A stretch of 43,879 bases of DNA. Origin: Planctomycetota bacterium. Its GTDB lineage: Bacteria; Planctomycetota; Phycisphaerae; UBA1845. Below the pieces are notes generated by a model that was given only the letters and a program-made list of their open reading frames with translations, was not told the origin of the DNA and made no database searches. Below, piece by piece: positions 8,791 through 42,159 of this stretch; position 1 is the stretch's first letter, and each line of letters opens with the position of its first letter. The stretch is taken from positions 1 through 43,879 of the forward strand of contig JADFPW010000003.1 of NCBI GenBank assembly GCA_022562105.1, written 5' to 3'. Made by a program: the position numbers and the translations under genes.

Positions 8791-11700
8791 CTACCCAGCG
8801 CAGTCAACGGCACAGTTGACCGCGTCCTCACTGCCCTCGCAGTTCCCATCCCCACAACAGGAACTCGGGGGCTCGAATTCCGGGTCGCAATCTACCGGGC
8901 ACAAGGCCTCGGATTCCAATACGGGCGTGCATACGCCGTCACCGCAGCAAGCCCAGCAGGCGTCTGGCGTCGGGGAGCATGGGCAGTCGGCCATACAGGT
9001 GAAGCAGTCCTCGCCGTCGCCCTCACAGATACCATCGCCACAGGTTCCGCCGCCGGCGAAACAGTCCTCCGGGCAGTTCACGCAGTCCTCGCCCTCAACG
9101 CATTCGCCGTCAACGACGCAGATGCAGATCGGGTCCAACTCGCAGTCGACATCATCGCAATCGATCAGCTCATCGCAGTCCTCGTCGATTCCGTCGGCAC
9201 AGTTCGTCTCGATGAGCGGCGGCTCGCCGCAATCGATCGGGCATGCGCACGAATCTTCGCCCAGCTCACAAGACTCGTTGCCGCAGCATGAGCTGATCGG
9301 CTCATTCACGCACAGGCCATTCCCAGCGTCACAGCCATCGGTCGTGCACGGGTTGCCATCGTCGCAGTCAATCGGATCGCTGACACACCCGGTGACCGGG
9401 TCGCAACTGTCCAGGGTGCATGCGTCATCGTCGTCGCAGTCGACCGTGTCGTAGGTACATCCCGTGTCGGGATCACAGCCGTCGTTGGTGCATGCGTCTT
9501 CATCGCCGCAGTCGATCGACTCATGGACACATCCGCTGCTTGGCCCACAGCTGTCGGCCGTGCAAGCATCGGCGTCATCGCAATCGACCGGCGTGCTGAA
9601 ACATCTGCCCTCCAAACAGAGGCCGGAGGTGCAGGGGTTTTGATTGTCGCAGTCGGTGTTCGCCGTGCAGGGTCCGCAGTCGATCGTGCAGTTGTCCGCA
9701 AGCTCGTCGCCCTCGCAGATGCCATTGCCGCAGCACGCCCTGGCACACTCCGGCCCCATACAGCGGCAATCATCCGGACAGGAAAAACAGTCCTCCCCGT
9801 CACCGCCGCAGACGCCATCGCCGCAAACGGGCGGAGGGCAGATATTAGGTGCCCTCGGCGTGTCGAATGTCAAATCGTCGAAAAGACCGATCTCCCAATG
9901 GCCGACGCCGTCCGGACACCTGTACACTCGAATGGGCGCAAGAGGCCCGACGGTGGTGTTGCAATAAACCCACTCGCCGGAGCCGACCGTCTCCAGCAGT
10001 CCAATGCAGCCGAGCACCACCGACCAGGGCTCGACATCCAGGATCCCGTCATCGTCGAGATCCAGGTCATCTCCAATGACGCCGACAAAGTCGCTGACCA
10101 ACAGGTGAGTGACGTTGTCGATGTTCTCGAAGTTGAGGTTGGTGATCAGGTCCGGTGTGATGCCATTGAGCGAGAAGGTAGCCTCGGCGACCAGGAAGAA
10201 CCCGCCGGAAGGCACCTCCTGGCCCGAAAGGTCGATGACCGCTTCAATCTCTCCGCTGCCTGCAACCCCGTCGCCAATGACGACATAAGTCAGGCCGTCC
10301 AGCTTCATACTCGGTGGACCCAGAAGCTCAAAGTACTCATCGGTGTCGTCGCCGACCTGATCGACGCGGATCTCATTGAGTGCCACACCGACGGGAATCG
10401 GAATGCAGCGTTCCGCATACTCGTTGCAGAGCGTGCCGCTGTTGCACGGGTCTCCGGCGGAGATGCAGCCATCGTCAGGGTGGCACTCTTCAACACCGTT
10501 GCAGAACAGTCCGTCGTCCTCGCAATTTGCGTCGTCGGCCGTGAAGACGCAGGTACCGTCTTGGCAAGAATCATCCGTGCAGCCTACGCTGTCGTCGCAG
10601 TCGCTGTCTTGAGCGCACTCATCGCACGTGTCCGTATCCTCGTTGCAGAACGTGCCCGGCTCGCAGGGATCCCCGGTCGAGACGCAACCTTCGACAGCGT
10701 CGCACACCTCCGCTCCGTTGCAGAACAACCCGTCGTCCGGGCAGTTGGCATCATTGGCCACGTGGTCGCAGGACTCCGTCTCCTCGTTGCAGGAGTCGTC
10801 CGTGCAGCCTACCGCGTCATCGCAATCGGGAGCCGTCCCGGCCTGACAGTCGTTGACCTCATCGCAGGTCTCCGCCCCGTCACAGAACAGGCCGTTGTCG
10901 CAGTTGGCGTCGTTGGCGAGGTGGTCGCAGGAGTTCGTCTCCTCGTTGCAGGAGTCATCCGTGCAGCCTAGCGCATCATCGCAATCGGGAGCCGTCCCGG
11001 CCTGACAGTCGTTGGCGCCATCGCAGGTCTCCGCCCCGTCACAGAACAAACCGTTGTCGCAGTTGGCGTCGTTGGCGACGCGGTTGCAGGAGTCCGTCTC
11101 CTGGTTGCAGGAGTCGTCCGTGCAGCCTACCGCATCATCGCAATCGGGAGCCGTGCCGGCCTGGCAGTCATTGACCTGGTCGCAGGTCTCGGCCCCGTCA
11201 CAGAACAGGCCGTTGTCGCAGTTGCCGTCATCGGGCGTGGAAACGCACGATCCGTCGACGCACGCGTCGTTGGTGCAGCCGACACCATCGTTGCAGTCGG
11301 CGTCTGCCTGGCACTCATCGCAGGTGTTCGTCGCCTCGTTGCAAAACGTACCCGGTTCGCAGGGGTCACCGCCGGAGACGCATCCCTCGACGGCGTCGCA
11401 TCCCTCGCTGCCGTTGCAGAATAGTCCGTCATCGTCGCAGGCGGCATCATTGGGCATGTAAACGCAAGTTCCGTCTTGGCAGACATCGTCCGTGCAGTCG
11501 ACGCCGTCTTCGCAGTCGTCCGGGCTGTCATCACAGTCAGACACGGGGCACTCCCCGAACCGAGCGATTACGAAGCCGATGTCCAAGAAATCAACGACTC
11601 CATCGCCGTTGACGTCCGCCGGGAAGCAGGGATCTCCTTCCTCGACCTCCTGCCCCAGACAGGCCATTACGGCTCCCAAATCCAGCCCGTCGACCAAGCC

Positions 11701-12378
11701 GTCGCCGTTGACATCGGCGGGACAGTCGTTGGGTTCTTCGGGAAGGTCGACGTCCTCACTGGGGCCCAGGAGCAGATCGAGGTCCAAACCGCCGTCGGAG
11801 GAATCGCCCACCCAACTCGTTACGTCCTGCCAGCCCTTGCTGCGATAGAACACGAGCGACCAGTTCCCCGGCCCCAGGAGGCCGAAGGATTCGTCCCACG
11901 CAAAACTGATCAAGTCGATTCCGAAGAACCACACCGACGGATGAACTAGATCGTCCGGGTCAAAGCTCTCGTCCTTGACGATGTCGGCGGGCAGGATTCC
12001 CGCGGCCGGGATCGTAATAGAGTCCGGGTTCAACAGGCCGAAGAGATCTACCGACGTCTCCCCCTGATTATCAAGCAGGTAGATCAGGTAGGACTCGCCC
12101 TCGTTCAGCTCAACCAGTTCCAGAGCGTCCGGCAGCTCCGTGTCCGGGCCATAGTAGACCGCCGTATAAACCGTCACCAGGAAATCGAATCCGTCGCCGC
12201 CGAACTCATCGACTCGCTCGACGATCGGCGTGCCGCCGAACATCGGCCCGTCGTCGGCGCGCAGCGCCGGCGGCCCGGCGAATGCCGTCAGCCACAAGAC
12301 GGTTATCGTTATGAAGTACGCTCTCAAAAGACCCCTCGCTCCTGGTGGGCTCAAGATTGCTAACCCCCGCTGTCGCAC
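8791..12378 (-). CDS. Large secreted Cys/Asp-rich repeat protein with internal dockerin-type repeats and a lamin-tail-like domain
   Basis: Dockerin-like CPADVNGDGLVDGLDLGAVMACLG...FPADVNGDGVVDFLDIGFVIARFG; many CDDAVGCTDDSCNxETxSC / CDNGLFCDGAETC repeats; NEIRVDQVGDDTDEYFELLGP. Confidence 0.88.
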   Translation of the reverse strand: MRQRGLAILSPPGARGLLRAYFITITVLWLTAFAGPPALRADDGPMFGGTPIVERVDEFGGDGFDFLVTVYTAVYYGPDTELPDALELVELNEGESYLIYLLDNQGETSVDLFGLLNPDSITIPAAGILPADIVKDESFDPDDLVHPSVWFFGIDLISFAWDESFGLLGPGNWSLVFYRSKGWQDVTSWVGDSSDGGLDLDLLLGPSEDVDLPEEPNDCPADVNGDGLVDGLDLGAVMACLGQEVEEGDPCFPADVNGDGVVDFLDIGFVIARFGECPVSDCDDSPDDCEDGVDCTDDVCQDGTCVYMPNDAACDDDGLFCNGSEGCDAVEGCVSGGDPCEPGTFCNEATNTCDECQADADCNDGVGCTNDACVDGSCVSTPDDGNCDNGLFCDGAETCDQVNDCQAGTAPDCDDAVGCTDDSCNQETDSCNRVANDANCDNGLFCDGAETCDGANDCQAGTAPDCDDALGCTDDSCNEETNSCDHLANDANCDNGLFCDGAETCDEVNDCQAGTAPDCDDAVGCTDDSCNEETESCDHVANDANCPDDGLFCNGAEVCDAVEGCVSTGDPCEPGTFCNEDTDTCDECAQDSDCDDSVGCTDDSCQDGTCVFTADDANCEDDGLFCNGVEECHPDDGCISAGDPCNSGTLCNEYAERCIPIPVGVALNEIRVDQVGDDTDEYFELLGPPSMKLDGLTYVVIGDGVAGSGEIEAVIDLSGQEVPSGGFFLVAEATFSLNGITPDLITNLNFENIDNVTHLLVSDFVGVIGDDLDLDDDGILDVEPWSVVLGCIGLLETVGSGEWVYCNTTVGPLAPIRVYRCPDGVGHWEIGLFDDLTFDTPRAPNICPPPVCGDGVCGGDGEDCFSCPDDCRCMGPECARACCGNGICEGDELADNCTIDCGPCTANTDCDNQNPCTSGLCLEGRCFSTPVDCDDADACTADSCGPSSGCVHESIDCGDEDACTNDGCDPDTGCTYDTVDCDDDDACTLDSCDPVTGCVSDPIDCDDGNPCTTDGCDAGNGLCVNEPISSCCGNESCELGEDSCACPIDCGEPPLIETNCADGIDEDCDELIDCDDVDCELDPICICVVDGECVEGEDCVNCPEDCFAGGGTCGDGICEGDGEDCFTCMADCPCSPTPDACWACCGDGVCTPVLESEALCPVDCDPEFEPPSSCCGDGNCEGSEDAVNCAVDCAG
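10760..11240 (-). repeat. Tandem in-frame repeats of about 159 bp (53 aa), three near-identical copies, within the Cys-rich gene
   Basis: CDDAVGCTDDSCNQETDSCNRVANDANCDNGLFCDGAETCDGANDCQAGTAPD repeated; the DNA phrase atcgggagccgt(c/g)ccggcctg(a/g)cagtc recurs at about 10826, 10985 and 11144. Confidence 0.85.
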
Positions 12379-14388: not shown

Positions 14389-15033
14389 TCACTCGCTTCG
14401 CGGGCGACGCAGGAGGGCAAGCATCCCCACCATCAGCAACCCCAGCGAGGCGGGCTCCGGAACTGCGCCAAAGTCGCTTGCATCGTCCGGGCCGCGGATG
14501 AACTTGGCCGCGAATTCCATGTTCATCATCTTGCCGTCTTGACTGAAGTCGATGAAGCTTTCTTTGGTGAAGTCCGTGCCGACGATCTCGAATTCGAATA
14601 TGGCCGTTTCGCCCGGCAGCACCGTTGGATTGGAATCGTTTCCCCACGTAAGGTGGGCGTCGAAGTTGCCGAACCCATCCATATGGCCGGACTCGCCGCT
14701 CTGGTCGAACACGAACATCCAGTCAGCCAAACCCGACGTCAGGATCAGGTCGGTGACCGCGTCCGTCGCATTGAAACCAATTTCGTTGATCTCGAACTCG
14801 GCCTCGGGTACGTTAGTATCCGTGGTGTTGGTGACCATGAGCGTCAGCATGTCCTCGGTGACGCTGAAGTCGAGAATGGCATCGAGGATGTCTGCCGGGT
14901 TGTCGCCGCTGGAAAAGTCACTCAGCACGATCTCGAATCCGTCGGCCGAGGTCGTGCTAGTAAGCGTGCCACCAAGAATAAGTGGCAGCAGAACAAGGGC
15001 CAGCCAGTTTCGAGTTCCACGGTACATGGTCAT
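14389..15033 (-). CDS. PEP-CTERM sorting-domain secreted protein
   Basis: N-terminal signal NWLALVLLPLILGGTLTSTTSA; C-terminus VPEPASLGLLMVGMLALLRRPRSE. Confidence 0.9.
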   Translation of the reverse strand: MTMYRGTRNWLALVLLPLILGGTLTSTTSADGFEIVLSDFSSGDNPADILDAILDFSVTEDMLTLMVTNTTDTNVPEAEFEINEIGFNATDAVTDLILTSGLADWMFVFDQSGESGHMDGFGNFDAHLTWGNDSNPTVLPGETAIFEFEIVGTDFTKESFIDFSQDGKMMNMEFAAKFIRGPDDASDFGAVPEPASLGLLMVGMLALLRRPRSE

Positions 15034-29395: not shown

Positions 29396-29463
29396 TTGAC
29401 CCATCGGGATCCTCGTCGTATACAATGGTATTATGTTATCCTAGGATAATGGTATCCTAGGAC
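29396..29463 (+). promoter_or_regulatory. Sigma70-like promoter plus two tandem palindromic operators upstream of the basic-tailed regulator
   Basis: TTGACC (29396-29401) - 17 bp - TATACA (29419-29424), then TTATCCTAGGATAA (29436-29449) and a second TATCCTAGGA (TCCTAGGA at 29455-29462). Confidence 0.7.
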
Positions 29464-29478
29464 ATCAAGGAGACGGGC

Positions 29479-30723
29479 ATGAATGCGCGTGGAACGACGA
29501 GTGCAGGAGACAGGGGGGCGGCGAGCAACGGAACGAAGTTTCGGGCCGCGGGCGGGGCGAAGGTGAGCAAGACGCGGCGGAAAGCGAGCCCAAGTGCAGC
29601 CCGAGGAGGGCAGAGCAAACGGAAACGGACGATTGCGCCATCCTTCAAACGCAAGACAAATGCGGCGGCAGGGGCGTCGGGCAAACGGGTAGCGAAGGGC
29701 GCGGCTAATCGATCGCTGAAACGGGTGGTCAAGGGCTCGCCCAAACCATCGCTGAAACGGGTGGCTAGGGTGAGCGGCGGTAGGGGGGCGGTAGGGGGGC
29801 GATGGACCCAGAAACCAGTAAGCCCCGCAAGCAACCGACGGTCGAGTGTCGGCGGTAACTCTGGAAGTGCGAGAGCAGAGAAGAGGAAATCCGGACGGGC
29901 GCCGGCCGCGAAGGGGTCAGCCGCCAAGACAAAAATCGACAAGGGTCGGTCCGTCAAAACAAGAGCATCAAAGGGAAAACTGGTCAAGGCACAGGGGTCG
30001 GGACGACGGACGGCGAAGAGCAGCCCAGGGACGGTGGGGGAGAAAGGCAAGCAGAATAGGAGCCGTGCTGGCCGCAGGGCTGGTAGCACAAGCCAGCGAG
30101 TTGGCAGCAAAACCCGAAAGAATCCGTCGAAGGCGGGTCGCACGGTCCCACAAAACAGGACCGGCCACTCGAAGACGGCAAGCAGGGGGGGCAAGGGAAG
30201 GAAGTCGTCGGCATTGGCCACCGGGTTGCTAACCTCCTGTTTTGCCGGGTTACGCAGGCAACGGCCGCCCGATGGGCTAGGCGTGGTGGTAGCGCTGGTC
30301 GAAACGGTGGGGGGGCAAATCGACGCGACGGTGATCGCGTGCGATCGGCTGGGGAACCTTGGCCCACGCGGAGGCGCGCGGGTGAAACCAAGCGTGGCGC
30401 CGGCTCGTCTTGGCGGTAGCGGGCCGAAGTCTACTCGGCATCTGAGCCTGGCCCTGGCCGCCATGGGGCATCCGGTCCGGATCAAGATTCTGACGATGCT
30501 TCTCGACGGACCGGGAGTGTACCGGAGCCTGCAAAAAGTGACCGGGCTGAAACCGGGGCCTTTGTATCACCATGTGAACCAGTTGCGGCTGGCGGGGCTG
30601 ATCGGCCCAAAGGAACGCGATCTCTACGAGCTCACCCGCGCCGGCAGAAATCTGCTGATGGTGACCCTTGCCCTCGAGCCGCTATTGAAAGACCGGCGTC
30701 TTCGCCCGCAGGCGACGGGATGA
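29479..30723 (+). CDS. Histone-H1-like Lys/Arg-rich low-complexity N-terminal tail fused to an ArsR-like winged-helix DNA-binding domain
   Basis: About 240 aa dominated by K/R/S/G/A (e.g. SLKRVVKGSPKPSLKRVARVSGG), then HLSLALAAMGHPVRIKILTMLLDGPGVYRSLQKVTGLKPGPLYHHVNQLRLAGLIGPKERDLYELTRAGRNLL. Confidence 0.82.
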   Translation: MNARGTTSAGDRGAASNGTKFRAAGGAKVSKTRRKASPSAARGGQSKRKRTIAPSFKRKTNAAAGASGKRVAKGAANRSLKRVVKGSPKPSLKRVARVSGGRGAVGGRWTQKPVSPASNRRSSVGGNSGSARAEKRKSGRAPAAKGSAAKTKIDKGRSVKTRASKGKLVKAQGSGRRTAKSSPGTVGEKGKQNRSRAGRRAGSTSQRVGSKTRKNPSKAGRTVPQNRTGHSKTASRGGKGRKSSALATGLLTSCFAGLRRQRPPDGLGVVVALVETVGGQIDATVIACDRLGNLGPRGGARVKPSVAPARLGGSGPKSTRHLSLALAAMGHPVRIKILTMLLDGPGVYRSLQKVTGLKPGPLYHHVNQLRLAGLIGPKERDLYELTRAGRNLLMVTLALEPLLKDRRLRPQATG

Positions 30724-31493: not shown

Positions 31494-33404
31494 TCACAGG
31501 ACGGGCAAGGAGATATCACTCCGAGCGACGGTGTGGTCTTGCTGTTCGTGGCGCTTCGTATGGCTTCCATCAACATCCCTTGCAAGTCCGGCCACCGAGT
31601 TCAACTCGGCGACCAGGGCTTCCGCATCGAGGTTGTGCTGTCGTGCGGCTGCACGCAGGGATACTGCCCGCGCTAACGTGCGTCTGAGGATTGGACTCTG
31701 AAGCGGGGCGAAACCTTTGGCGAGCAGAACCGGGAGCGTGGCGGGGAACCATTGCACAATCCAGCCAACTTTATCGTCGGCGGTGATACGGGACGGCCGC
31801 TGGACCGCTGCATCCGCTACCGGGCGCCAGCCGGCCATGATACGCCAGAGATGCAGCCCCCAGATGCCGATACCGGCCACTTCCAACAATCCGCTCACGC
31901 CGGTGACCGGGTAGGCCCAATCGGCGAAGTCGGTTCCAATCTGAAAGGACACACGCATGAGGCAACCGGTGTTCACCAGGAAGAATGGAATCCACAGCGA
32001 GCGCAGTTGACGAATGTCCACGCCGTTCAGGGTGGGCACGATCTTGGCAGCCATACCTAAGATCATCAGGCTGATAAAGCCGACCGTGATAGCGTGCCGC
32101 ACCGCCCCACCGTACGCATGCGAGAAGCCGATCTCCACGGCCCGATGCCCACTTGGCGATAGCGACTCCACGGCGGGTAGTACGACGTACATGTACACCG
32201 GTGCGAGCACCAACATCAGCATGGACACGTGCAACCAGATCACCGCCGCCCGCACGAACTTGACGCTGCGATCGGATTCCGTAGGCCGGGCCAATACGCC
32301 CCACCGCAGGGTGAGCCCGACGCTGGTGATTGCGATCAACAACATCGAAATGAGCAAACCGCCGGTGGCGAACGGGCCGCCGTAACGGCGCATGAGGATG
32401 AACATGGTCGCTTCGCCGAGCACCGCGCAAACCAACAACCCAAGCCCCACCCGCACCGCGATCGCGTTCGGCGCTCGCAGGCCGAAAAGTGCGGGCAACA
32501 TTCGCAACCCGACGCCGAGGATCATGAGCAGGGCGAAGCCGTGGATTTGGAGGTCTCGCAGCGGCGCTTGATACACGGACACAAGATAGAGAAGACGCTC
32601 TGGAGCCATGCCGGGCGCCGTTGTTGCGTACAGAAAGCCCAGATCGTAGACGGCCTGCAAGAGGAAAAAGGCCATGGAAGCCAGTATGAACCCGTCATGC
32701 CGTTCAAGTCGTTTTCCGCTGCTCAGGAGCGTTTTCAGAATGATGGTGAGGAACATCCCAATCGCGACGACCTCAGCAAGATTGGCCACTACCGCCAGAC
32801 CACGAAACACCGGTATGTGAAATAGCGGTTCCCCGAGAGCGCGGGCAAAGACGCCGAACACCATTAGGTAGAACGTCATGTTGGCCAGATCCGGGCGCCA
32901 AAGGCTGGTGTGTTTCATTCGGGGAAAGGCTTGGTAAGCGAATCCCATCACGAAGAGCCCAACCCAGCCGAAGATCTGGGCGTGACCGTGGGCGTTGATT
33001 TCGTGAATGGGCAGAGCGGTGAACGAACCCTTGAATCCGATGCGCAGGAGTAGGATGGCGCCCCAAACGGCGCCGGCCGTCATGATCACGACGATTCCGG
33101 CCTTGAAAAATCGGCGGTAGATCGTGTCGGCCAACTCATCCAGGGAATCGCCGGCCGAACGTTGCTCCTCGCTGCTAATCGAGTCGGGGTCTTGAATCGC
33201 AGCATTGAGTTCGTCAACGATCTGCCGGACATCAACGCCGTGTACGCGGGCGAAATACTCGATGGACTCTGCCGGACCTAACGACCCGCCGCATCCCCGC
33301 AGGCCGTAGCGATCGAGAATCGGGCGTACGTGTGGGTGCGCTTCCAACAACTCCGGCAGCATCAGATCAGGTCCGACAGTCGTGAAGCTGTTTGTCATAT
33401 TCAA
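31494..33404 (-). CDS. NnrS-like/haem-copper-like multi-TM membrane protein with N-terminal DUF1858-like domain and a second, weaker DUF1858-like C-terminal segment
   Basis: LMLPELLEAHPHVRPILDRYGLRGCGGSLGPAESIEYFARVHGVDVRQIVDELN; INAHGHAQIFGWVGLFVMGFAYQAFPRM; HGFALLMILGVGLRMLPALFG; C-terminal LPVLLAKGFAPLQSPILRRTLARAVSLRAAARQHNLDAEALVAELN. Confidence 0.8.
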   Translation of the reverse strand: MNMTNSFTTVGPDLMLPELLEAHPHVRPILDRYGLRGCGGSLGPAESIEYFARVHGVDVRQIVDELNAAIQDPDSISSEEQRSAGDSLDELADTIYRRFFKAGIVVIMTAGAVWGAILLLRIGFKGSFTALPIHEINAHGHAQIFGWVGLFVMGFAYQAFPRMKHTSLWRPDLANMTFYLMVFGVFARALGEPLFHIPVFRGLAVVANLAEVVAIGMFLTIILKTLLSSGKRLERHDGFILASMAFFLLQAVYDLGFLYATTAPGMAPERLLYLVSVYQAPLRDLQIHGFALLMILGVGLRMLPALFGLRAPNAIAVRVGLGLLVCAVLGEATMFILMRRYGGPFATGGLLISMLLIAITSVGLTLRWGVLARPTESDRSVKFVRAAVIWLHVSMLMLVLAPVYMYVVLPAVESLSPSGHRAVEIGFSHAYGGAVRHAITVGFISLMILGMAAKIVPTLNGVDIRQLRSLWIPFFLVNTGCLMRVSFQIGTDFADWAYPVTGVSGLLEVAGIGIWGLHLWRIMAGWRPVADAAVQRPSRITADDKVGWIVQWFPATLPVLLAKGFAPLQSPILRRTLARAVSLRAAARQHNLDAEALVAELNSVAGLARDVDGSHTKRHEQQDHTVARSDISLPVL

Positions 33405-33865
33405 GTTCCTCTCTTGGACGGCATCGCAAGGTCGATTGGTTTGACGGGCTGACAGAGTGGCGTGCTCCGCCCCGGCTCGGCGAGTAGCTCGGCGATCGTG
33501 GTCGAAGCGAACGACTGCTCCACCAACGCGGTGGCCTCGTCAAGTCGCTTATGCAGTGGGCAAAGATTCGTTCCGTGCGAATCGATCCCCAGGGGGCAGC
33601 GGTCGATCCGTTTGATCGGGTCTACGGCGTTTACGACTTCAAGAACGGTCAGCTCCTCCGCTGGTCTGGCCAGGGTGAACCCTCCGCCCAGCCCGCGCTT
33701 GGAATGCACCAACCCCGCCCGACGCAGGGTCTGCAGAACCTTGGGCAAATAGCCTGGCGGCACCCTGGTGATCTCCGCGATCGTGGGGGTCACGACGGCC
33801 CCCCCGCTGCTCTGGGCGATGGCCACTATGGCTCTAAGGGCGTACTCGGCGGTGGGTGAAATCAT
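33401..33865 (-). CDS. Rrf2-family transcriptional regulator (NsrR-like position)
   Basis: MISPTAEYALRAIVAIAQ, PPGYLPKVLQTLRRAGLVHSKRGLGGGFTLARP, RCPLGIDSHGTNLCPLHKRL. Confidence 0.93.
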   Translation of the reverse strand: MISPTAEYALRAIVAIAQSSGGAVVTPTIAEITRVPPGYLPKVLQTLRRAGLVHSKRGLGGGFTLARPAEELTVLEVVNAVDPIKRIDRCPLGIDSHGTNLCPLHKRLDEATALVEQSFASTTIAELLAEPGRSTPLCQPVKPIDLAMPSKRGT

Positions 33866-33895
33866 GCGAACGCTCCAATTTTAACTATTTGGGCC

Positions 33896-33934
33896 TTGAT
33901 ATCCAGATTGTAGTCCCTATAGTCGAAGAGTCAA
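33896..33934. promoter_or_regulatory. Overlapping face-to-face promoters between rrf2 and norZ
   Basis: Plus: TTGATA 33896-33901, 16-bp spacer, TATAGT 33918-33923. Minus: TTGACT (33934-33929), 16-bp spacer, TACAAT (33912-33907). Both centred on 33915. Confidence 0.65.
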
Positions 33935-33982
33935 GAGGAGATTTGGACCCAAAGAGGCGTATTCGGGCATGGAACTTGAAGA

Positions 33983-36265
33983 ATGAACACGAAACGGCTG
34001 TGGCTAGCTTTTGTAGCGGTGATTATCGGATCATTTTCGGTGCTGGGGTACTACGGGCTGGTGATCTACCGCGAAGCTCCGCCCATCCCCGACAGGGTCG
34101 TCACCGCCGATGGGCACGTGGTCTTCACCGGCCAGGAGATCCGCGATGGCCAGAACGTGTGGCAATCGATGGGCGGCCAGCAGGTCGGCAGCATCTGGGG
34201 CCACGGGGCCTACGTGGCCCCTGACTGGTCCGCCGACTGGCTGCACCGCGAGGCCGTCTGGCTCCTGGAGCATTGGGCCCAAGATGAGTACCGCAGCGAA
34301 TACGCGTCCGTGCACGAAGAGGTACAGGCAGCCCTTCGCCAACGGGTCAAGACCGAGTTGCGCAGTAATACCTACGATCCGCAGACGGGCGACTTGACGG
34401 TCTCCGCTCGACGAGCAGAAGCGATTCGCGCAGTGGGAACGCACTACACGAAGCTGTTCGGAGACGATGAGACGCTCCAGGAACTTCGCGACGCCTACGC
34501 CATTCCTCCGAACTCGATCAAGACATCGGTGCGGCGACACAAACTAAACGCTTTCTTCTTTTGGGCTTCCTGGGCGTGCTCGACGAATCGGCCTGGTAAG
34601 GACATCACCTACACGAACAACTGGCCGGCGGAAGACTTGATCGACAATGGCCCGACCGGCGCCATCGTGGTGTGGTCGGTGGTCAGCTTCGTGGTTCTGC
34701 TCGCGGGGATCGGGGCACTTTCCTGGTACTTCGCGGTGGCCCGTGAGAAGGAAGAAGCTCCCCACAACATCCCGCAGTCCAATCCCTTGCTGAGCCTTAC
34801 ACCAACGCCCTCCATGAAAGCGACGTTGAAGTATTTTTGGCTGGTGACGGGGCTGATGGTCGTGCAGGTCGGACTCGGTGCCATCACGGCACATTATGCG
34901 GTCGAGGGATCGGGTTTCTATGGCATTCCGCTGGCCAAGTGGTTGCCCTACGCGGTGACCCGAACCTGGCATACTCAGCTTGGCATCTTCTGGATTGCCA
35001 CCGCGTGGTTGGGCACGGGTTTGTTCATGGCACCGGCAGTCTCGGGCCATGAACCCAAGTTTCAACGCCTCGGCGTCCATGTCCTATGGGGCTGCCTGGT
35101 GGTAATCGTTATCGGTTCAATGGTTGGCGAATGGCTCGGCGTACAGCAACGCCTCGGAATGGCGGAAAACTTCTGGTTTGGACATCAAGGCTATGAGTAT
35201 GTCGATCTGGGCCGTTTTTGGCAGATCTTTCTCTTCGTCGGGTTGTTCCTTTGGCTCGGCTTGATGCTGCGTGCCTTGTGGCCTGCGATCAGGACACCGG
35301 GTGAGAACCGTAGTCTTCTGGCGCTTTTCCTCATCGCATCCGCGGCTATCGCCTTGTTCTACGGTGCGGGATTGATGTGGGGGCGACAAACCAACCTGGC
35401 CATTGCCGAGTATTGGCGTTGGTGGGTCATCCATCTGTGGGTCGAAGGCTTCTTCGAGGTGTTCGCGACGGTGGTGATCGCTGTTCTGTTCGTACGTATG
35501 GGGTTGCTGCGCGCGTCCACGGCGACAGCCGCCGCCCTGTTGTCCACGACGATCTTCCTGAGTGGCGGCATCATAGGAACGTTTCACCACCTCTACTTTA
35601 CCGGGACACCGACGGCGATTTTGGCTCTCGGCGCCACCTTCAGTGCCCTCGAAGTGGTCCCGCTGGTACTCATCGGTTTTGAAGCGCATGAGAGTCTCAA
35701 ACTCAGTCGCGCCCGCCCGTGGGTCTCGGCCTACAAGTGGCCGATCTACTTCTTCGTGGCGGTAGCATTCTGGAACTTGGTCGGCGCCGGTCTGTTCGGC
35801 TTCCTGATCAATCCTCCGATCGCGCTTTATTATATGCAGGGGCTGAACACCACGGCCGTACATGCCCATACCGCGCTGTTTGGCGTCTACGGCATGCTCG
35901 GCATTGGACTGATGCTCTTTTGTTTCAAGGGGGTAGCTGTACGTCAGGAGTGGCGTACACGGGTTCTGTCCTACGCCTTTTGGTCAATCAACATTGGGTT
36001 AACGTTGATGGTCTTGATCAGCGTACTGCCGGTAGGACTCATGCAGACTTGGGCCAGCGTGGAGCACGGAATGTGGTACGCACGGTCCGCGGAGTTTCTG
36101 CAAGCGGACGTGTTGGGCACACTTAGATGGCTTCGTGTAATCGGCGACACGATTTTCGCAAGCGGAATCATGGCTCTCGCCTGGTTCATAGTGGGACTCA
36201 AGACCGGTTGGTCAATCAAGCAAGAGCGAGAGCCGCACTTGGAAGGAATCCCCAGCGCGTCGTGA
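33983..36265 (+). CDS. norZ: Quinol-dependent nitric oxide reductase (qNOR)
   Basis: N-terminal GQEIRDGQNVWQSMGGQQVGSIWGHGAYVAPDWSADWLHRE plus C-terminal NorB-like region (YWRWWVIHLWVEGFFEVFATVVIA, GTFHHLYFTGTPTA, HAHTALFGVYGMLGIGLMLF). Confidence 0.93.
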   Translation: MNTKRLWLAFVAVIIGSFSVLGYYGLVIYREAPPIPDRVVTADGHVVFTGQEIRDGQNVWQSMGGQQVGSIWGHGAYVAPDWSADWLHREAVWLLEHWAQDEYRSEYASVHEEVQAALRQRVKTELRSNTYDPQTGDLTVSARRAEAIRAVGTHYTKLFGDDETLQELRDAYAIPPNSIKTSVRRHKLNAFFFWASWACSTNRPGKDITYTNNWPAEDLIDNGPTGAIVVWSVVSFVVLLAGIGALSWYFAVAREKEEAPHNIPQSNPLLSLTPTPSMKATLKYFWLVTGLMVVQVGLGAITAHYAVEGSGFYGIPLAKWLPYAVTRTWHTQLGIFWIATAWLGTGLFMAPAVSGHEPKFQRLGVHVLWGCLVVIVIGSMVGEWLGVQQRLGMAENFWFGHQGYEYVDLGRFWQIFLFVGLFLWLGLMLRALWPAIRTPGENRSLLALFLIASAAIALFYGAGLMWGRQTNLAIAEYWRWWVIHLWVEGFFEVFATVVIAVLFVRMGLLRASTATAAALLSTTIFLSGGIIGTFHHLYFTGTPTAILALGATFSALEVVPLVLIGFEAHESLKLSRARPWVSAYKWPIYFFVAVAFWNLVGAGLFGFLINPPIALYYMQGLNTTAVHAHTALFGVYGMLGIGLMLFCFKGVAVRQEWRTRVLSYAFWSINIGLTLMVLISVLPVGLMQTWASVEHGMWYARSAEFLQADVLGTLRWLRVIGDTIFASGIMALAWFIVGLKTGWSIKQEREPHLEGIPSAS

Positions 36266-36309
36266 CACAACAGTGTTTTGGCTGATGGGGACAAAGGAGG
36301 TAATGAGCT

Positions 36310-37029
36310 ATGACGACTGGAAGCAAGCGAACCGTCGGTGAATGGGTGACTGAGCGTCCGAGTAGGTCACGTGTGTTCGAACGATTCGGAATCGACTATT
36401 GCTGTGGCGGGAAGCAGCCGCTCGATGCGGCTTGCTCCAAGGCCGGCCACGCCCTGAATGATGTGCTGGAGGCGCTTGACGAATCGGACGCGTGCTCTGC
36501 CGGAGAAGAAGATGTCGACTGGTCGCAGGGCAAAATGACGGATCTGATCGATCACATCGTCTCAACGCATCACGCTTATCTGCGCCGGGAGCTTCCGCGA
36601 TTGGAGGCGATGGGGGCCAAGGTCGTAGCAGCACATGGCGATCGGCATCCGGAGGTGGTCACCTGCCAGGAGGTGTTCACCTCGCTGCGAGCCGAACTGG
36701 AGTCGCACATGGATAAGGAGGAACAGATTCTGTTCCCCATGATCAAGTCGCTCGACGGCGCCGAGTCCGTTCCGCAGTTTCATTGTGGGGGCATCGAGAA
36801 CCCGATTGCCGGTTTGGAGGACGAACACGACAACGCCGCTCGGGCGCTGAGGAAGTTGCGAGCCCTTACCCACGGGTATGAGCCTCCGGATGAGGCCTGC
36901 AACACCTACCGAGCATGGCTCGACGGTCTACACGAGGTTGAGGCGGACATGCATCGGCACGTTCACAAAGAGAACAACATCCTGTTTCCGCAGGCGATTC
37001 ATGCCCAAGCGGCCAGCGTCAACCATTGA
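36310..37029 (+). CDS. ric: RIC (ScdA/YtfE)-family di-iron Fe-S cluster repair protein
   Basis: SRSRVFERFGIDYCCGGKQPLDAAC; HHAYLRRELPRLE; HMDKEEQILFPMI; EDEHDNAARAL; HVHKENNILFP. Confidence 0.93.
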   Translation: MTTGSKRTVGEWVTERPSRSRVFERFGIDYCCGGKQPLDAACSKAGHALNDVLEALDESDACSAGEEDVDWSQGKMTDLIDHIVSTHHAYLRRELPRLEAMGAKVVAAHGDRHPEVVTCQEVFTSLRAELESHMDKEEQILFPMIKSLDGAESVPQFHCGGIENPIAGLEDEHDNAARALRKLRALTHGYEPPDEACNTYRAWLDGLHEVEADMHRHVHKENNILFPQAIHAQAASVNH

Positions 37030-37169: not shown

Positions 37170-37472
37170 TCACCCGCGGCCGCCCGTTCGCTCCCTCATC
37201 GTCTTGAGGTCTTCCGGGCCATGGGCGACCACAATCTGCCCCGCTCGGACATTCAGCGTGTACACCACCATGTATTCAGTGGCGGTATTGATGACGTAGA
37301 CCAACTCCTCATCATTGTGAAGCATGCCGTTGATCATCACGTAGTCCCCGCTCTGGGCGGTCATTCCAGATGCCTGGGCCGGCTCGGGTCGGGAGCTGAT
37401 AATGAACAGCCCGGTGAGCAGGATCACGGCCGTCGTGCTCAGGATGCCGATGCTTAAGTCTTTCGAATCCAT
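37170..37472 (-). CDS. Small secreted/membrane-anchored hypothetical protein
   Basis: N-terminal TM IGILSTTAVILLTGLFIIS; GDYVMINGMLHNDEELVYVINTATEYMVVYTLNVRAGQIVVAHGPEDLKTM. Confidence 0.65.
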   Translation of the reverse strand: MDSKDLSIGILSTTAVILLTGLFIISSRPEPAQASGMTAQSGDYVMINGMLHNDEELVYVINTATEYMVVYTLNVRAGQIVVAHGPEDLKTMRERTGGRG

Positions 37473-38368: not shown

Positions 38369-39478
38369 GTGACGTTTAGCAAGCTGGACCGCCAATTCAT
38401 GTTGCGGGCACTGACGCTGGCCAAGAGAGGTCAAGGATACGTCGAGCCCAATCCGATGGTCGGCTGCGTGCTGGTTCGGGGCAGGCGGATTGTAGGGGAA
38501 GGCTATCACAGGCGCTTTGGTGGACCACACGCCGAGGTGGATGCCCTTTCTCGAGCCCAAGCGAGTGCCCGCGGTGCGACCGCATACGTCACACTGGAGC
38601 CGTGCGGCCACTTCGGCAAGACCCCGCCATGCACTCGTGCGTTAATCGAGGCCGGCATCCGCCGTGCGATCGTCCCCGCCGAAGATCCCGGGCCATTGGT
38701 CGCCGGTCGTGGACTCAGACAGCTGCGATCAGCCGGTATCCGGGTGGATGTCGGACTGTGCCAGCCGGAGGCCGAGCAGCTCAATAGGCCCTATTTCAAG
38801 ATGTTGCGGACCGGGATGCCCTATGTGATCGCGAAGTGGGCCCAGAGCCTGGACGGCAAGATCGCCACCCGCCGCGGCGACTCCCAGTGGATTTCCGGCG
38901 AAGGTGCTCGGCGCCTGGTGCATCGGCTTCGCGCTCGTGTGGATGCGGTGATCGTCGGAGTGGGAACGGTGCTAGCTGACGACCCCCGCTTGACCGCCCG
39001 CAACACCAAGGTGCGGCGCGTCGCGACCCGGCTGGTATTGGACACCCACCTGCGTACCCCCCCTACCGCGTCGCTCTTCGCCGCGCCCCTTCGCGCCCCG
39101 GTCGAAATCGTCACCATCCGTTCCAGTGCTCAGCGTCATTCACTCCGGGCTCGCCGATTGATCGCCTCCGGCGGCGACATCACCACGGTTCGTCCTGCCG
39201 GCTCGCGTCCCAGTCTTCCTGCGCTTCTTCGCCTCCTGGGAAAGCGAGGCTGGACCAACGTCCTGGTGGAAGGCGGCGCGGCGATAACGAGCACTCTACT
39301 GGATGCGAATCTGGTGGACGAAGTATTTGCATTTGTCTCGCCCCGCCTGATCGGGGGTCTGCATGCCGTACAGGCCTTCGCCGGCCTGGGTTCCGCCACG
39401 TTGTCGACCGCTCAAGTATGGCCCAACGTGGAGGTCCGCCGCGTTGGCTCGGACTGGCTGTTTCGCCTGCGGACGTAG
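38369..39478 (+). CDS. ribD: Bifunctional riboflavin biosynthesis deaminase/reductase RibD
   Basis: VEPNPMVGCVLVRGRRIVGEGYHRRFGGPHAEVDAL, TLEPCGHFGKTPPCTRALIEAGI, KWAQSLDGKIATRRGDSQWISG, NVLVEGGAAITSTLLDANLVDE. Confidence 0.95.
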   Translation: MTFSKLDRQFMLRALTLAKRGQGYVEPNPMVGCVLVRGRRIVGEGYHRRFGGPHAEVDALSRAQASARGATAYVTLEPCGHFGKTPPCTRALIEAGIRRAIVPAEDPGPLVAGRGLRQLRSAGIRVDVGLCQPEAEQLNRPYFKMLRTGMPYVIAKWAQSLDGKIATRRGDSQWISGEGARRLVHRLRARVDAVIVGVGTVLADDPRLTARNTKVRRVATRLVLDTHLRTPPTASLFAAPLRAPVEIVTIRSSAQRHSLRARRLIASGGDITTVRPAGSRPSLPALLRLLGKRGWTNVLVEGGAAITSTLLDANLVDEVFAFVSPRLIGGLHAVQAFAGLGSATLSTAQVWPNVEVRRVGSDWLFRLRT

Positions 39479-40309
39479 TCGCTGGCGCACGTTTGCAACA
39501 TGCCAGTGGCCCTCGACCCCGGCCTTGGCGAGCGAATGATCACCACCTCAGAACAACGGCGGCAGTCCAAAGGTGTCACGCGACCCACGATCTACGACGG
39601 GCAAGGAACACCCATTGCGATCCCCTCCACATGGCCGTCGACTGGCGGCTTTTATGCACCGCGTTTTCGAGTGCACCCGAGTGGTCGATTCACACCGCCG
39701 AGTCAGGCTGAACACGCCGGACTCTTGTTTTCCCACGCACCACCGTCCGCAACCTCCTGTTGATAGTATATCCTGTTATTCTGTTATTACAGTATACCAT
39801 AATAAAGTACTCCACAATGCGCATAGCCGACGTTGCTCGCCAGCGTGAACTCCGCGACGCCCGTAGCCCCCCCCCCGCCTGCCAGACTGTCCGGAACAAC
39901 CCCACCCAGCAGCGCCCATCCCGCAGCAGAATACGCTCACCGGACCACGCGTTCGGCAGCGGGATAGGTTTGCACCCCTGGGGTACCATTCACTCCGCTT
40001 ACCGCCCACCCGGCAACACTATCGCCCTACTCCAACAGCCTGTAACGGCCTCATTGTGCTTCGTCCCCTCTCCATGCGAATGAACGCCTTTCCTCCGCTG
40101 AGCGGCATTCCACCGCATCGGGTAGCTCTCGAAGCATGCTCGCCGAAATGACGCCACTACCGGGCCCGTCTGACCCGGGCGAGTCGGCTGCGACCCATGA
40201 TTGGCCTGCCAAGCCGCGGGTGCTACCCCGACAGTCGGTCATCACCCGCCGGCCGATCGGGGAATGAATGCTGCGAATTGATGGTCGATGCAGAAGCCCA
40301 AAGTCGCTA

Positions 40310-40633
40310 TCAGGTGTTCCATACCGGTCGCGTGCCGGTCAGATAGGTCAGCTGGTGGTAGCAGTACAGCCAGGCCGCGGCGATGGATTGCAGGTCGTCG
40401 ATTGCCGCCCGCGGGGCGCGCATGGTATGCAGGCGTTGGCCGAGTTCGGCTTGAAGATCGATCCACCCGCGCGGCGTATCGAGATTCAAGCGGCCGACAC
40501 GAAGCCCCAACTGTTCGCAGCCACCGGCGGCCCGTTCGCTCAGAGCTCGCATTCGGCGTTCCAGATCCTTGATCGCCGCTCCGAGCCCCTCACCGCCCGC
40601 GGTGGAACTATCCAGATTTCGGGTGTCACGCAT
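40310..40633 (-). CDS. Hypothetical helical protein
   Basis: Plausible residue composition (AAIKDLERRMRALSERAAGGCEQLGLRVGRLNLDTPRGWIDLQAELGQRL); the opposite-strand ORF looks like a shadow. Confidence 0.45.
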   Translation of the reverse strand: MRDTRNLDSSTAGGEGLGAAIKDLERRMRALSERAAGGCEQLGLRVGRLNLDTPRGWIDLQAELGQRLHTMRAPRAAIDDLQSIAAAWLYCYHQLTYLTGTRPVWNT

Positions 40634-40836
40634 CTCGCATTCTCCCGGAGATCAAACCGCCTCGAGTGGCGTCGCCGGGTGGCATTGATCGAGCGCAGCG
40701 GCGCTGGGCACGCTTCCCACGCGCCAAACCAGTTTGGTTCATTCTGGCCCGGACTGCAAGTGGGTGCCTCCCCATCTGCACAGGATCAAGATCGAGGCTT
40801 GTCCAACCTAGGTGCCACAGCATAGACTGCCTTTTC

Positions 40837-42159
40837 ATGGCCAAACTGACGCCAGAAGAATTGACTGCTCGCTTTGCCGATCTGGAACCGGCGATGACCG
40901 ACGGCGAGGCTGTCGTTGAAGCGGGGCGCTGCTTGTTTTGCTTCGACGCGCCATGCACGCGGGCCTGCCCCACCCAGATCGACGTACCGAGGTTTATCCG
41001 CAACATTCTCCACCGGCACTCGATCGCGGCGGCTCGAACGATTTTGGACGCCAACATCTTCGGCGGCTCCTGCGCCCGAGCCTGCCCCACGGAAGTGCTC
41101 TGCGAGGGAGCCTGCGTCGACCACCTGCGCAGCGAAGCACCCGTGCAGATCGGACGGCTGCAACGTTTCGCCTGCGATCAAGCTACCGCCTCCGGGCGGG
41201 AGTTCTTTCGCACTGGGCCCGCCACCGGCCGACGTGCGGCGATCGTGGGAAGCGGACCCGGCGGCCTTACCTGCGCCCATGAGCTACGCAAATACGGTCA
41301 TGAAGTGGTGGTCTTTGAATCCCGCGACGTGGCTGGCGGATTGAACACTCTGGGGATCGCGGCCTACAAGATCTCGACCGAGTTCGCGCTGAGTGAGGTA
41401 GCCCTTGTGCAGCAGCTTGGCGTCGAGATTCGGCTGAACTCGGCGATTGATGGTCCCGGCCTGCGGCGCTTGTTGGACGAGTACGACGCGGTTTTTCTCG
41501 GCATCGGGTTGGGGGTGACGGCGTCGCTGGGGATCGAAGGGGAGGAACTTCCGGGCGTGTGGGAAGCCCTGGAGTTCATCTTTCAGACCCACCGAAAGCC
41601 GTTCGAGGAGTGCGAGGTAGGACAGCGCGTGGTGGTCATCGGCGCGGGCAACACGGCCATCGATGTCGCTACGGCGGCCATTCGGCTCGGAGCGGAGGAG
41701 GTCACGATCGCGTACCGGCGTGATGCCGCGAGCATGCCTGCGTTCGGCTATGAGTATGAGCTGGCTCGGTCAGACGGAGTCGGTTTCGTTTGGTTGGCCC
41801 AACCCCACCGCATCGTTGCTCGAGATGGCAGGGTCGGCGGTGTGGAGTTTGTGCGCACGGAGCTAAGCGGCTCGGGTCGAGCGGCTCGGGTCCGGACCGT
41901 GGACGGAAGCGAGTTCGAGATCGAGGCTGACATGGTGATTGAAGCGCTGGGCCAGGATCCTTGCTACGACTTCCTGCGGTCGATTCCGGAACTGACCGTC
42001 GATCGCGGGCACGTAGTCGTTGATCCGACCAGCTTGGCGACCAGCATACCGAAACTGTTCGCAGGTGGTGACTGTGTTAGCGGCGGAGCCGAGATCGTCG
42101 ACGCCGTTCAGGCGGGGAAGCTCGCGGCTAAAGGGATTCACCAGAGCTTGGCCGGGTAG
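40837..42159 (+). CDS. NAD(P)-dependent oxidoreductase related to PreT / glutamate synthase small subunit
   Basis: CLFCFDAPCTRACPTQIDVPRFIRNI, GGSCARACPTEVLCEGACV, AAIVGSGPGGLTCAHELRKYGHEVVVFES, VVVIGAGNTAIDVATAAIRLGAEEVTIAYRR. Confidence 0.92.
   Translation: MAKLTPEELTARFADLEPAMTDGEAVVEAGRCLFCFDAPCTRACPTQIDVPRFIRNILHRHSIAAARTILDANIFGGSCARACPTEVLCEGACVDHLRSEAPVQIGRLQRFACDQATASGREFFRTGPATGRRAAIVGSGPGGLTCAHELRKYGHEVVVFESRDVAGGLNTLGIAAYKISTEFALSEVALVQQLGVEIRLNSAIDGPGLRRLLDEYDAVFLGIGLGVTASLGIEGEELPGVWEALEFIFQTHRKPFEECEVGQRVVVIGAGNTAIDVATAAIRLGAEEVTIAYRRDAASMPAFGYEYELARSDGVGFVWLAQPHRIVARDGRVGGVEFVRTELSGSGRAARVRTVDGSEFEIEADMVIEALGQDPCYDFLRSIPELTVDRGHVVVDPTSLATSIPKLFAGGDCVSGGAEIVDAVQAGKLAAKGIHQSLAG

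Follow-up and report, generated by a model that had tools for sequence, protein, structure and literature searches.

The gene at 29479-30723 on the forward strand of the window (the whole 43,879-nucleotide stretch of DNA analysed here) encodes a 414-residue winged-helix regulator with a long basic N-terminal tail. To judge from its sequence and that of its relatives, it is probably an autorepressor that fills an array of 8-bp repeats in its own promoter as a multimer, with the tail adding nonspecific affinity for DNA. The features on which this reading draws are the following.

29396-29426, forward strand: predicted sigma-70-type promoter (from sequence and scoring), TTGACC at 29396-29401 with TATACA at 29419-29424 (17-bp spacer) or TACAAT at 29421-29426
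29421-29460, unstranded: array 1, tandem 8-bp MYRKWATW units over the predicted -10 and the leader (from upstream occurrence, periodicity and genome rarity)
29467-29472, forward strand: Shine-Dalgarno sequence AAGGAG, 6 nt before the ATG
29479-30723, forward strand: gene for the 414-residue basic-tailed winged-helix regulator (from the ORF and its homologues)
29479-30204, forward strand: basic low-complexity N-terminal tail, residues 1-242 (from composition and an open-frame test)
29683-29754, forward strand: a tandem pair of 36-bp copies (78% identity) that encodes the SLKRV repeats
30280-30345, forward strand: conserved beta-hairpin, about residues 268-289 (from the alignment and the AlphaFold model)
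30424-30687, forward strand: ArsR-fold winged helix, about residues 316-403, with a near-invariant GPLYHH recognition-helix motif (from Pfam, a PDB match, alignment, AlphaFold and Foldseek)
39769-39808, unstranded: array 2, the better-matching one, with three overlapping exact matches

The reading frame is intact from its ATG over 414 codons. The sequence-only reading had described some 240 residues of basic low complexity with internal SLKRV repeats ahead of a complete ArsR-type winged helix, and each of these elements is real. The tail is N-terminal and free of stops, with 29% Lys plus Arg, 2% Asp plus Glu, and abundant Lys, Arg, Ser, Gly and Ala. Its stop-free length is matched by only 0.05% of base-shuffled segments, and the other two forward frames across it contain 8 and 6 stops. 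A 342-codon antisense frame (29457-30485, reverse strand) is also wholly open opposite the tail, probably because of the skewed base composition there (28% A, 9% T). The codon-position GC pattern shifts at the end of the tail, consistent with the changed amino-acid make-up at that point. The basic region is very probably translated, since both the Shine-Dalgarno sequence and a promoter array conserved in the family lie just 5' of the ATG. An internal start that leaves the tail untranslated, which would count against the earlier proposal, is ruled out by these two elements and by the basic tails of the orthologues. AT-hook and SPKK motifs are sparse in the family tails, at 0-2 per tail.

The conserved beta-hairpin sits between the tail and the winged helix. 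The regulator matches Pfam HTH_5 with an E-value of 1.6e-4 and 21.9 bits against a cut-off of 22, and it scores 26 bits with the same model in the genome search. Its best sequence match in the PDB is E. coli YgaV (3cuo, E 2.5e-6). Residues 243-414 were modelled with AlphaFold using 38 relatives; the model has a mean pLDDT of 87 and a pTM of 0.80, and its best Foldseek matches among PDB structures all belong to the ArsR family (HlyU, BigR, SmtB, CadC and others; E about 1e-4, TM-score by target about 0.7). By sequence and by model, the predicted fold is thus of the ArsR type. The NCBI metalloregulator model NF033788 gives only 23.3 bits against a cut-off of 55, and the family alignment contains no conserved cysteine, metal motif or Cys/His sensor site beyond the His pair of the recognition helix. 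No H1 or Hc family model in Pfam matches the regulator at E-values up to 1; models of this type cope poorly with compositionally biased tails. Across the family alignment the recognition helix hardly varies, as expected if the DNA site is conserved.

Homologues are present in 31 of 60 genomes, comprising the window's own and its relatives in the Phycisphaerae, most of them incomplete metagenome-assembled genomes (MAGs). Named relatives in the public collection are MAGs of Phycisphaerae, Phycisphaerales or unclassified Planctomycetota, along with four distant non-planctomycete ones. A phylum-wide sample of 294 genomes outside the order yielded nothing beyond the window's own genome apart from three weak matches. 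By these searches the gene is a marker of one order of Phycisphaerae. The family is apparently undescribed, as no description of it was found in the open-access literature. One member, L150, is found with its array on a contig of 53.6 kb that is classified as viral (IMGVR_UViG_3300033407_000965); this contig could be a bacterial one filed wrongly or part of a provirus.

Nearly all Phycisphaerae members have a Lys/Arg-rich, acid-poor N-terminus. The 39 N-termini measured are 12 to 260 residues long (median 52), and their median composition is 31% Lys plus Arg and 2% Asp plus Glu; a rule fixed where each starts and ends, so not every limit is certain, and L091 and L103 are the least convincing. 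The tails cannot be aligned and retain their composition, while the hairpin and winged helix are conserved. The window's tail is the longest and is an outlier within the family. The member whose winged helix is most similar to that of the window's protein (L012/L085, 68% identical) has only about 20 basic residues ahead of its hairpin. Together with the wide range of tail lengths, this indicates that the family can do without a long tail. Orthologues lacking the tail, which would also speak against the earlier proposal, do not appear in the Phycisphaerae; only the distant relatives (one from a Thermoprotei MAG, three from Bacillota MAGs) begin with something other than a basic tail, and these also lack the array.

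Short AT-rich repeats lie 5' of nearly all orthologues. The autocorrelation of the upstream DNA has z-scores of 12.8 at lag 8, 10.9 at lag 16 and 7.1 at lag 24, and the fitted 8-bp unit, [AC][CT][AG][GT][AT]AT[AT], is nearly self-complementary and occurs in arrays of roughly 3 to 6 units. Scanning the neighbourhoods with this model located an array 5' of 25 of the 31 family genes and found none in shuffled sequence. The model was fitted on most of these first 31 loci, so that nine loci fetched later provide a fair test; all nine have an array just upstream, bringing the total to 34 of 40. A motif-free check on the AT-richest upstream window of the same nine loci gives a z-score of 7.7 at lag 8, compared with -0.3 for AT-rich control windows elsewhere in the loci. 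These control windows and a backward-read pattern rule out AT-rich noise as the source of the array. Six of the 40 family members lack an above-threshold array upstream, and one of the six lies at a contig end. A single palindromic operator, TTATCCTAGGATAA, was considered and has been superseded by the 8-bp array.

The arrays tend to coincide with predicted promoters. Predicted sigma-70 promoters scoring at least 12 overlap 12 of the 34 arrays; flank shuffles give 2.5 such cases and the opposite strand gives 1, and no shuffle set attains the mean promoter score seen at the arrays. In the best cases TTGACA is followed, after a 17-bp spacer, by TATAAT or TATACT, and this -10 falls within the array. 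The match of the window's own predicted promoter is moderate (TTGACC), and the significance holds only as a family trend. A predicted -10 element within the array is the geometry of a repressor site, and array 1 is likely to be the autoregulatory operator of the gene.

The array is also rare and travels with the gene. At up to two mismatches the window's 4.19-Mb genome contains it twice, both times in the window, and the backward-read pattern has 0 matches there; since this MAG is 79% complete, the organism may have more arrays. Across the 60 genomes the array and the gene co-occur (Fisher p 2.7e-8, or 3.5e-7 without two coding-region matches). The second array matches of G053 and G059 lie where the two genomes share a coding-region homologue, and they were excluded as promoter arrays. 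The sole genome with an array but without a detected gene is G039, where the array lies at a contig end. The array is not a phylum-wide element, as its match frequency outside the order is about equal to that of the backward control. An out-of-order planctomycete with no detected family member carries a regular 8-bp AT-rich array (L155, G132:C348:2328-2379), which may be a simple tandem repeat or the site of another regulator.

Array 2 is the best match in the whole genome. It lies between a RibD-like gene ending at 39478 and an ORF for a dihydropyrimidine-dehydrogenase/GltD-like oxidoreductase (40666-42159), in a long stretch between genes where no regulated gene could be recognised, which is a point against the autorepressor reading. 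A weak promoter-like TTGATA...TGTTAT is present at array 2 in the forward direction. Array 2 does not appear to be the remnant of a second gene copy, since 39479-40840 has no homology to the family gene or its neighbourhood. No Rfam match to a structured RNA was found within the window.

As an autorepressor, the regulator would act as a dimer through its winged helix, like other ArsR proteins, and several copies would bind cooperatively, side by side, on the 8-bp AT-rich units. The occupied array would cover the -10 region and the start of the regulator's own promoter, and the gene would be shut off. The disordered basic tail would contact DNA phosphates independently of sequence, giving higher affinity and a longer residence time. 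The sequence evidence suggests that the regulator is the ligand of the array and that it represses and multimerises there, with the role of the tail a matter of inference; that the array is bound by the encoded protein for self-control is very probable. The usual site of an ArsR protein is one longer inverted repeat, or two, rather than short tandem units, and proteins of this fold are not known for arrays of this kind.

The sequence-only reading had also proposed that a sequence-specific domain joined to such a tail makes a chromatin-type regulator. The first half of this proposal has gained a likely target in the 8-bp array, but the chromatin-type role is unsupported so far. With an array at two places in 4.19 Mb, one of them the gene's own promoter, the evidence points first to autoregulation and argues against a genome-wide silencer acting through the array. 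A chromatin role is possible, and the tail itself is the sole positive pointer to it. It might take several forms. In one, which we regard as unlikely, chromosome compaction is the main job of the protein: the tail coats bulk DNA, and excess protein fills the array and stops further synthesis, so that autoregulation sets the level. Conservation of the composition rather than the sequence of the tail and the near confinement of the site to the gene's own promoter would both fit, and the H1-like Hc2 of Chlamydia is likewise variable in length through lysine-rich repeats (PMC2848022). However, about half of the relatives do not have the gene, which argues against an essential packaging protein, and many family tails are short (12-60 residues). 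An equally slim chance attaches to a self-limiting chromatin factor resembling a linker histone, in which the winged helix on the array would sense the free pool and also nucleate tail-driven compaction.

Slightly less likely again is that the array nucleates local compaction or spreading silencing, the winged helix docking there and the tails condensing nearby DNA. The putative docking array adjoins a gene for a 242-residue basic tail, the two arrays of the window are 10 kb apart and could be bridged, and Rok, with a basic arm before its winged helix and a preference for TpA-rich DNA, offers a precedent (PMC6212790). However, there are only two sites per genome, and most relatives combine one array with a short tail.

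The neighbourhood of the regulator suggests a different connection. A tRNA-queuosine mannosyltransferase gene (PF12038) lies 3' on the same strand in 17 of 40 loci, usually close by, and a gene for a small membrane protein without a Pfam family lies within the fetched stretch in 28 of 40; both counts are limited by contig ends. Where the former shares an operon with the regulator, autorepression would shut it off too. In G016 the regulator and mannosyltransferase genes have a separate array between them. In the window the small membrane protein is represented at 37170-37472 on the reverse strand (about 100 residues, one N-terminal transmembrane stretch, no Pfam family), and its homologues near the regulator often form a tandem pair. 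The two genes lie close to each other in relatives and are separated here by a nitric-oxide-related cluster (31494-37029) that encodes NnrS, an Rrf2-type regulator, a NorB-like reductase ORF and a ScdA_N/hemerythrin (RIC-type) protein, with Pfam support for three of its proteins. Elsewhere in the window, the ORF list includes a 1195-residue ORF with many cysteine-rich repeats and dockerin-like motifs (8791-12378, reverse strand) and a PEP-CTERM-like protein (14389-15033).

The mannosyltransferase gene might be the output of a system in which the tail binds a non-DNA ligand, such as tRNA, other RNA or polyphosphate, in competition with DNA. Its position in the 17 loci is consistent with this, and the H1-like AlgP acts on polyphosphate granules (PMC9239181), but the window's genome has its mannosyltransferase gene on a different contig, on which the scan found no array, and we consider the idea improbable. 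Least probable is that another regulator binds the array and the tailed protein works elsewhere: the pairing of array and protein is deduced from sequence, and the array is unfamiliar for this fold, but array and gene travel together and the genome holds almost no other targets, as autoregulation predicts.

A winged-helix protein with a histone-like tail here has a candidate target that is almost unique in the genome, which offers a direct way to ask how such tails contribute to the recognition of specific DNA. For a protein of the ArsR fold an array of 8-bp units would be an unusual operator, and it predicts that the protein binds as a multimer. The regulators of this order of Phycisphaerae are little studied, and the frequent position before the queuosine mannosyltransferase gene suggests a link to tRNA modification.

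Among known systems, the ArsR/SmtB repressors (YgaV, HlyU, BigR, SmtB, CadC) share the winged-helix fold and sequence similarity with the regulator, which differs from them in falling far below the metalloregulator cut-off, in lacking a conserved cysteine or metal motif, and in adding the hairpin, the basic tail and an 8-bp array in place of a single inverted repeat. Rok, the xenogeneic silencer of Bacillus, contacts DNA through the basic arm before its winged helix and prefers TACTA, AACTA and repeated TpA steps (PMC6212790), all of them sequences that the family arrays contain too. However, Rok silences many AT-rich regions, whereas the array as defined is found at two places in the window's genome, to which weaker or non-array binding may add sites. 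The winged-helix protein BldC of Streptomyces multimerises on a variable number of 9-bp direct repeats (PMC5859096), and arrays of about 3-6 units would fit such a cooperative mode; BldC has a MerR-like fold and no basic tail, whereas the regulator matches ArsR rather than MerR and its 8-bp unit is nearly self-complementary. Rok and BldC are thus analogies of working, not of membership. The regulator tail resembles H1, Hc2 and AlgP in being a long basic low-complexity region of variable length. Eukaryotic linker histone H1 likewise combines a winged helix with basic tails. Unlike these H1-like proteins, the regulator has no H1-type Pfam match, and its globular part is ArsR-like with an apparent specific operator.
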